The position numbers and the translations under genes are program-made. Below, piece after piece: positions 14,325 through 15,494 of a stretch of DNA of 59,556 nt. The notes beneath the pieces were generated by a model. It did not search any database. It was not told where the DNA came from and saw only the letters and a list, made by a program, of their open reading frames with translations. Every line of letters starts with the position of its first letter. The stretch's first letter is position 1. Source of the DNA: an uncultured Phycisphaerales bacterium. Its GTDB lineage: Bacteria; Planctomycetota; Phycisphaerae; Phycisphaerales; UBA1924. The stretch spans positions 1 through 59,556 of the forward strand of contig CALKJW010000006.1 in NCBI GenBank assembly GCA_937995595.1, in the 5' to 3' direction.

Positions 14325-15494
14325 GTGAAGATCGACCTGCACACGCACATCCTGCCCGAGAAGTGGCCCGACTGGACGAGGAAGTCCGGCTACGCGGGTT
14401 GGATCGCGCTCGAGCACCACGGCGCGGGCTGCGCGAGGATGTGCCAGACCTGCAGCACCGACGGCAGCAGCCCCCCCCGGTTCTTCCGCGACGTGCGGGC
14501 CAATCTCTGGGACCCACAGGCGCGACTCGCCGACATGCAGCGCACCGGCGTGACGACGCAGGTGCTCAGCACCGTGCCGGTGATGTTCTCCTACTGGGCC
14601 CGCCCGCGCGACGCGCTCGACCTGGCCCGCCTGCTCAACGACCACGTCTCCGGGGTTGTCTCGGCACATGGCACTGGTGGGGCAGGCGTCCCGCCTGCCC
14701 TTGGCGGCAGTTCCCGCCCCTTCGAAGGCCTCGCCACCGTCCCCCTGCAGGACATCGACCTGGCCATCCGCGAACTCGAACGCTGCACGACGCCGACCGA
14801 CCGCGGCGGCCTCGGCCTCCGCGGCGTGCAGATCGGCACCAACGTCAACGGGCTGAACCTCGGCGAGCCCGAGCTCTTCCCCTTCTTCGAGGCGGCGCAG
14901 CGGCTCGACGCCGCGGTCTTCGTCCACCCGTGGGACATGCTCGGCGCGACCTTCGGGCACAGGCCGACGAACCAAGGCCCGCCGCCCGTGCCGCCCGAGG
15001 CGCACCCGCGCTACGCCAAGTACTGGATGGCGTGGCTGGTCGGCATGCCCGCAGAGACCGGCATGGCCGTCGCCTCCGTGCTCCTGTCCGGCCTGCTGGA
15101 CAAACTGCCGCGGCTGCGCATGTGCTTCGCCCACGGCGGCGGCAGTTTCACCGGGACCATCGGCCGGCTCGAGCACGGCTTCGAAGCGCGCCCGGACCTG
15201 TGCGCCGTCGACACCAAGAAAAGCCCGCGGCAGCACGTGCTACGCATCGTCGATGCCCAGCGCGGCGAGGTGCGGCCCGCGAGTTTCTACGTCGATTCCC
15301 TCGTGCACGACGCGGGCGCGCTCGGCACGATCTGCGGCCTGCTCGGGGCCGAGCGCGTCGCCCTCGGCAGCGACTACCCCTTCCCGCTCGGCGAGGAACA
15401 CCCCGGCGCGCTCATCGAATCGATCCGCGGCCTGCCCGACTCCATGCGCGAGCAACTGCTGTGGAAGACCGCGGCGGAGTTCCTGCGGCTGTAG
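14325..15494 (+). CDS. 2-amino-3-carboxymuconate-6-semialdehyde decarboxylase (ACMSD)
   Basis: A 389-residue amidohydrolase-superfamily protein. The zinc-ligand HTH (His6, His8) near the start, LSTVPVMFSYW, FVHPWDM, MCFAHGGG and GSDYPFPLGEEHPG match ACMSD closely. ACMSD converts aminocarboxymuconate semialdehyde to aminomuconate semialdehyde, drawing kynurenine-pathway flux away from quinolinate and NAD. Directly downstream are kynureninase and kynurenine monooxygenase, which supports the call. Oddity: residues 114-130 (Gly/Ala/Pro-rich) are about 15 residues longer than expected between VVS and RPFEGLATVP, and are encoded by a palindromic repeat. A formylkynurenine or 3-hydroxyanthranilate dioxygenase gene is not in the window. 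Confidence 0.9.
   Translation: MKIDLHTHILPEKWPDWTRKSGYAGWIALEHHGAGCARMCQTCSTDGSSPPRFFRDVRANLWDPQARLADMQRTGVTTQVLSTVPVMFSYWARPRDALDLARLLNDHVSGVVSAHGTGGAGVPPALGGSSRPFEGLATVPLQDIDLAIRELERCTTPTDRGGLGLRGVQIGTNVNGLNLGEPELFPFFEAAQRLDAAVFVHPWDMLGATFGHRPTNQGPPPVPPEAHPRYAKYWMAWLVGMPAETGMAVASVLLSGLLDKLPRLRMCFAHGGGSFTGTIGRLEHGFEARPDLCAVDTKKSPRQHVLRIVDAQRGEVRPASFYVDSLVHDAGALGTICGLLGAERVALGSDYPFPLGEEHPGALIESIRGLPDSMREQLLWKTAAEFLRL
14680..14700. repeat. Palindromic repeat inserted in-frame inside the ACMSD gene
   Basis: GGGCAGGC (14680-14687) and GCCTGCCC (14693-14700) form an 8-bp stem around GTCCC. The pattern (GCAGGCGTCCCGCCTGCC) is the REP-like type scattered through many planctomycete genomes. It sits within the coding sequence, and the reading frame stays open across it. 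The inserted block is about 45 bp, encoding the Gly/Ala/Pro-rich stretch at residues 114-130. Confidence 0.7.

Follow-up and report, generated by a model that had tools for sequence, protein, structure and literature searches.

How does a palindrome come to lie in the middle of a metabolic gene whose reading frame stays open? The gene belongs to the window, by which we mean the whole 59,556-nucleotide stretch of DNA analysed here; the window is part of contig C6 of a 3.11-Mb draft genome (G000, 96% complete) of an uncultured Phycisphaerales bacterium. Its coordinates are as follows.

14325..15494, forward strand: gene for 2-amino-3-carboxymuconate-6-semialdehyde decarboxylase (ACMSD), 389 aa, GTG start; based on Pfam, PDB matches and dN/dS.

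This open reading frame matches the Pfam family Amidohydro_2 (E 5.6e-31), and its top matches in the PDB are ACMSDs (E about 1e-96); a profile search of NCBIfam with the ACMSD returned no families. A kynureninase gene comes next on the same strand, and an amidase gene lies upstream on the opposite strand. The sister species G001 encodes an ACMSD 81% identical to that of the window, and with a dN/dS of 0.18 between the two genomes the gene looks functional and under purifying selection.

Alignments with the PDB ACMSDs contain a 14-residue gap at a block that an earlier, sequence-only reading had described as about 45 bp of extra sequence. We measured the segment from the ND motif to the FxG motif across the bacterial family, where 79 genomes have an ACMSD match and 70 entered the comparison (four partial matches and five others were left out). 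The segment has 31 residues in the window's ACMSD and 17 in 54 of the 70. The insertion is thus real, and its net size relative to those 54 is 14 residues, or 42 bp rather than 45.

14658..14714, forward strand: expanded loop segment, about residues 112-130; based on alignment and a low-confidence loop in the AlphaFold model.

The mean pLDDT of the model is 78 for residues 111-120 and 57 for residues 121-130, against 97 and 95 in the flanks, and the low-confidence loop falls between a helix (94-114) and a strand (133-137). The inserted peptide is accordingly modelled as a flexible loop, in agreement with the earlier proposal that it is tolerated at the protein surface.

Within this loop the sequence-only reading had also noted a perfect inverted repeat with 8-bp arms. 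The palindrome is indeed perfect, with arms one base pair longer than claimed, and it overlaps a tagged element of 23 nt.

14680..14700, forward strand: perfect palindrome with 9-bp arms (14680-14688 and 14692-14700) and a 3-nt loop, TCC; based on sequence and folding.
14677..14680, forward strand: GTGG tetranucleotide tag at the hairpin foot; based on per-base conservation in 91 copies.
14677..14699, forward strand: GTGG-tagged REP element, 23 nt, encoding most of the peptide GGAGVPPA; based on the alignment of 91 copies and on 152 copies spread over 21 of 163 genomes.

The 23-nt unit, which occurs once in the window, consists of the tag and the hairpin GGCAGGCG-TCC-CGCCTGCC, with arms at 14681-14688 and 14692-14699 and the loop at 14689-14691 (8-3-8). 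As single-stranded DNA, positions 14670-14706 fold at -13.5 kcal/mol (z -3.2; one of 200 shuffles was as good). Searching the genome for the palindrome, as the sequence-only reading had suggested, was informative: a 20-mer has five exact copies in G000 and 12 with at most two mismatches, while at most three mismatches give 27 matches against six for the reversed control, both strands being counted and self-complementary hits included. Across the family, a 19-mer with at most one mismatch occurs 152 times, against two for the reversed pattern, with 62 copies in G035, 17 in G042, 16 in G081, 15 in G025, 11 in G000 and three in G001. In 91 distinct copies aligned in context, each base of the GTGG is kept in 95-97% of cases and those of the hairpin in 93-100%, and flanking columns reach at most 54%. 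Because tag and hairpin are conserved in these copies and the flanks are not, we delimit the element as GTGG plus the 8-3-8 hairpin; on the evidence of this alignment, the window's palindrome is a dispersed REP element.

A GT[AG]G tetranucleotide at the hairpin foot is described as a REP hallmark in passages of three papers (PMC2817692, PMC6006769, PMC8266576), and one of these passages reports GTGG tags in Pseudomonas REPs (PMC2817692). The window's element has such a tag (GTGG), and at 23 nt it lies within the range of about 20-50 nt of these short dispersed palindromes. Facing pairs and tandem clusters, which are typical of REPs, are found in G081, G042 and G035. Copy number is lower than the more than 100 per genome that is usual, if not obligatory, for REPs (11 in G000, at most 62 in G035); REP families with fewer than 100 copies are included in Table 1 of PMC2817692.

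These counts bear on an alternative in which the loop is an old and normal part of ACMSD and its GC-rich Gly/Ala/Pro codons form a palindrome by chance. The segment is longer in 16 of the 70 family ACMSDs, the window's included; three of the 15 others carry REP-like sequence (G001, G048 and, in degenerate form, G115) and 12 carry no recognisable REP, three of these 12 having a 7-bp inverted repeat. In addition, a hairpin scan of the 70 genes (stems of 8 bp or more, loops of 3-5) picked up seven hairpins outside the loop segment (71,979 bp), two of which were identified as REPs of a second loop, alongside three inside it (4,221 bp; p 0.015), namely those of the window, G001 and G048. Such loops and hairpins speak for chance, but chance does not account for a 23-mer with 152 copies against two reversed, a conserved tag and unrelated flanks. 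On dispersal and control counts we reject the chance palindrome and the old loop, a reading that we consider extremely unlikely. The sequence-only reading had itself named the same loop in genes lacking the palindrome as an argument against insertion. That argument holds in part: longer loops without a recognisable REP do exist, in the 12 genes above, and because of them the ACMSD loop appears tolerant of length change in general; residues 118-125 (GGAGVPPA) of the window's ACMSD, however, are encoded by the REP element itself, and in the hairpin scan the window's gene is the sole one to carry it. The 23-nt unit leaves 19 bp of the net gain unexplained, and a 23-bp insertion alone would shift the reading frame.

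That a REP-like element sits inside the ACMSD coding sequence with the frame open had been seen correctly; that this is unusual does not hold for this bacterial family. REPs typically lie between genes; for 61 of the 91 aligned copies a plausible ORF across the element is lacking, and the other 30 fall within ORFs that are 150 aa or longer and have coding-like GC3, only part of which we confirmed. After Pfam searches and inspection, the window's REP lies between conserved parts in 12 genes, a strict set picked by hand in which a multi-copy IleRS gene counts once. With names such as IleRS and SucC given from motifs and Pfam hits, the set comprises ACMSD and squalene-hopene cyclase (both in G000), two MmeI-type methylases, a MiaB-like radical-SAM protein, a methylpurine glycosylase, an amidohydrolase, three IleRS-like class I tRNA synthetases, aconitase and SucC. 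ORFs were dropped where the REP is probably upstream of the true start (L129, L132, L133), where a domain was found on one side only (L137, L259) or where a Pfam match was absent (L272, L273), and overlapping or short ORFs were also left out.

Nine of the 12 strict genes read the element in one of two Gly/Ala/Pro-rich frames (GGAGVPPA or AGGTPAP; p 0.004 against an expectation of 1/3), and three use other frames. This preference fits selection for a harmless loop. In-frame insertions of this REP, and of the sister REPs described below, recur in the family. We further note a single IleRS-like class I tRNA synthetase gene (L263/L264, contig C42 of G035) with five in-frame REP copies, all in the same frame.

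The frame preference also bears on the possibility that the hairpin is retained because it acts at the DNA or mRNA level, through terminator-like activity, mRNA stability or translation pausing, with the peptide incidental. The hairpin folds strongly, and intergenic REPs are often proposed as RNA elements (PMC3733652). The element is, however, in mid-gene with an open frame and is confined to the window's species among the 70 ACMSDs, and the preference for certain frames points to selection on the peptide; we regard a nucleic-acid function as very unlikely. The explanation that we prefer, and hold with considerable confidence, is that a solitary GTGG REP of the 8-3-8 architecture seen in group 3 TnpA-REP REPs inserted in ACMSD at a permissive surface loop and was retained because its orientation and frame yield the flexible peptide GGAGVPPA. 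REP arrival may have involved a TnpA-REP that cleaves and joins single strands, and insertions in a wrong frame or at a bad site would have been purged.

The same ACMSD loop appears to have been struck repeatedly by different REPs. In the sister species G001 it contains GTAG-CACGGCCA-TCC-TGGCCGTG, in the same orientation and frame as the window's REP, and this GTAG REP has 15 further matches in G001 and two in G000; the G001 insert also contains the palindrome CATGGGCCGCAAGCCCATG, which has no other match in either genome. The loop in G115 holds a degenerate GTGG-CACGGGCG-TCC-CACCGGTG, again in the same frame, and G115 has 12 related sites, the ACMSD one included, with no control matches. Two observations are set beside these: in G048 (L061), CCTCTCCCCTCGGGAGAGG in the ACMSD loop is followed by a second hairpin, and in G001 five of the 15 further GTAG REP matches form an array, spaced at 33 bp (C14:50952-51105), directly after the ACMSD gene.

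The two second-loop REPs mentioned above are found after the HPWDM motif of the ACMSDs of G116 and G117; they read GGTPVPP in frame and show the tag complement CCAC, in the other orientation. The length of this second loop is measurable in 53 of the 70 ACMSD genes (not in 17), and in the window's gene (about 14940-15010) it is also expanded: the stretch between HPWD and YW has 34 residues there, whereas 41 of the 53 genes have 15. The hairpin of G116 and G117 is absent from the window's second loop.

The agreement of the G000, G001 and G115 REPs in loop, orientation and frame, with a chance of 1 in 36 if six frames are equal, raises the alternative that a single REP inserted long ago in an ancestor shared by G000 and G001, its stem being overwritten later through gene conversion by the locally dominant REP family. 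The insert flanks of G000 and G001 do not align, however, the ACMSDs of G111 and G114, from the genus of G115, are short-looped, and the second-loop REPs have the other orientation. We judge ancient insertion with conversion to be improbable, and retain separate insertions of REPs kept in a favourable frame as our preferred reading. Recent mobility of the ACMSD REP, which the sequence-only reading had raised as a possibility, is plausible, the copy matching the consensus perfectly and the sister species having another REP at the same place. The element's mobility, and the move into ACMSD itself, are inferred.

Which enzyme could have mobilised the element? A TnpA-REP is flanked by the window's REP in G035 and by near copies of it in G161; no such arrangement was found in the window's genome. 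In G161, a REP copy in the ValRS ORF adjoins a complete RAYT-like domain, and a second REP, in inverted orientation, bounds the far side of the unit, which is 595 bp long, is stop-free, has GTGG outward at both ends and lies between conserved ValRS parts. In G035, a RAYT is placed in frame in an Hsp70 ORF, flanked by the exact 23-mer of the window's ACMSD as inverted repeats. Enzymes of this kind, carried as in-frame domains of Hsp70 and ValRS, are the likely mobilisers.

The window's own genome offers no such candidate. A search with the G161 domain found no TnpA-REP of the embedded kind in G000; valS is uninterrupted in G000 and in G001, and embedded-type RAYTs are absent from both. G000 has two PF01797 (Y1_Tnp) genes, poorly related to the embedded RAYTs, and a hairpin scan around them found one 8-bp stem, which is not the window's REP. 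With the REP absent near both genes and little similarity, we rejected an own-genome RAYT as the mobiliser. A RAYT next to the window's REP in G001 (L133) is surrounded by other palindrome arrays and was counted as coincidence. With no matching enzyme in the window's genome, the ACMSD copy may be left from a past infection, or the 96%-complete draft may not include the gene; the mobilising enzyme could have been lost, or could be present but so far unseen.

The G161 RAYT domain has 70 matches (E <=1e-20) in 59 of the 163 family genomes. We examined 61 of them, counting two loci of one place in G035 once and leaving out nine, and all 61 lie inside longer ORFs (L318-L347, L378-L411); the usual RAYT trait of a free-standing single gene was seen in none. 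The hosts are ValRS (23, assigned by BLAST to both halves), RdgB (19; 16 by alignment and three by eye), LeuRS (16, at two sites, from motifs by eye with two checked against Pfam and L386 uncertain because of masked bases) and, by Pfam, one each of Hsp70, a PLP aminotransferase-like enzyme and MiaA. In 18 genomes, including the single-contig genome G064, the embedded ValRS is the sole match to the ValRS segment searched.

The first H of the HUH motif is present in 61 of 61 embedded RAYTs, the second in 60, and the catalytic Tyr in 60, the exception being G161 (Ser). The enzyme looks alive, its catalytic residues being preserved in nearly all cases. In three RdgB pairs dN/dS is 0.11-0.18 for the RAYT part, close to the 0.10-0.26 of the N-terminal host part. 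In a Foldseek search of the PDB, an AlphaFold model of an RdgB-RAYT protein (mean pLDDT 76, pTM 0.56) retrieved E. coli RdgB (E 6e-13) as well as 4er8, a REP-bound tyrosine transposase (E 7e-9).

Flanks with a common inverted repeat of at least 14 bp surround 48 of the 61 RAYTs, against 15 of 301 controls with mismatched partners, and repeats of at least 20 bp surround 31, against three of 301. The signal is weaker in LeuRS (7 of 16), and the MiaA-embedded RAYT has no flanking repeat of at least 14 bp. In a quick tree, many of whose branches are poorly supported, host labels need nine changes, with a minimum of six and a shuffled mean of 31; on this basis the RAYT enzymes appear mostly to follow their host gene and also to have moved between hosts. 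Phylum-wide, a RAYT match is present in 31 of 392 genomes, the hosts including ValRS, AlaRS and a FabA-like protein, with free-standing forms alongside. The loci L431, L434 and L438 of other Planctomycetota have RAYT domains inside FabA-like and AlaRS ORFs. A PHROGs search with the RAYT gave one weak hit, of unknown function in PHROGs.

These findings lead us to a broader proposal, which we regard as evenly poised between right and wrong. A lineage of REP transposases in Planctomycetota would live as translated internal domains of ValRS, LeuRS, RdgB, AlaRS, FabA-like proteins, Hsp70 and MiaA. Flanked by REPs and catalytically intact, it would jump in frame into permissive loops, where its removal or a frameshift would break an essential gene, and it would shed REPs that land in frame elsewhere, the ACMSD hairpin being one such copy. 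If true, the lifestyle would resemble that of inteins, but without splicing. Carriage of the transposase within essential enzymes would account for the way in which REP transposases escape loss, and in-frame insertion would become a strategy rather than an accident. Such embedded transposases would also mark sites in tRNA synthetases and RdgB where nature has already tested an insertion.

Among known systems, the GT[AG]G-tagged REPs (the GTAG superfamily and its GTGG variants) resemble the window's element in the tetranucleotide at the foot of a short hairpin, in dispersal and in occasional facing pairs. The stem sequence differs, and the window's genome shows no flanked transposase gene, that of its relatives sitting in housekeeping genes. 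The group 3 REPtron of Stenotrophomonas maltophilia (TnpA-Sm) is described, in the section of PMC8266576 that deals with it, as a GTAG tag followed directly by 16 palindromic nt interrupted by 3 nt. This 4+8+3+8 architecture is that of the window's REP, but the group 3 element has GTAG rather than GTGG and a free-standing transposase gene, and belongs to a proteobacterium. Rickettsia palindromic elements (RPE) are likewise palindromes that protein genes tolerate as in-frame insertions; RPE-1, however, is described as longer and confined to Rickettsia (PMC3733652), whereas the window's unit is 23 nt long, REP-tagged and from Planctomycetota, and is thus neither rickettsial nor a longer RPE-1-type insert.

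Inteins offer a parallel to the embedded enzymes: they too are mobile enzyme domains that conserved proteins, tRNA synthetases among them, carry in frame. The embedded RAYTs differ from them in their REP flanks, in that the RAYT presumably stays in the protein, and in the splicing domain, none being detected in the RAYT-bearing ORFs scanned with Pfam. Free-standing RAYT/TnpA-REP enzymes share the HUH and Tyr fold and the flanking inverted REPs, but the relatives of the window carry the enzyme as an internal domain of ValRS, LeuRS, RdgB and others. We found no report in the open-access PMC literature of REP transposases as in-frame domains of tRNA synthetases or other housekeeping proteins; one survey set aside long fused proteins (PMC6006769), and the same paper describes in-frame REPs inside tnpA-REP (subclass 2.4) as frame-keeping insertions. 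Intragenic REPs themselves are already known, including in tRNA synthetases, and in-frame cases are reported from several species, once at about the same recB site in two Xanthomonas species (PMC3733652). The hairpin of the window adds a metabolic enzyme of Phycisphaerales-related bacteria to the genes known to contain REPs.
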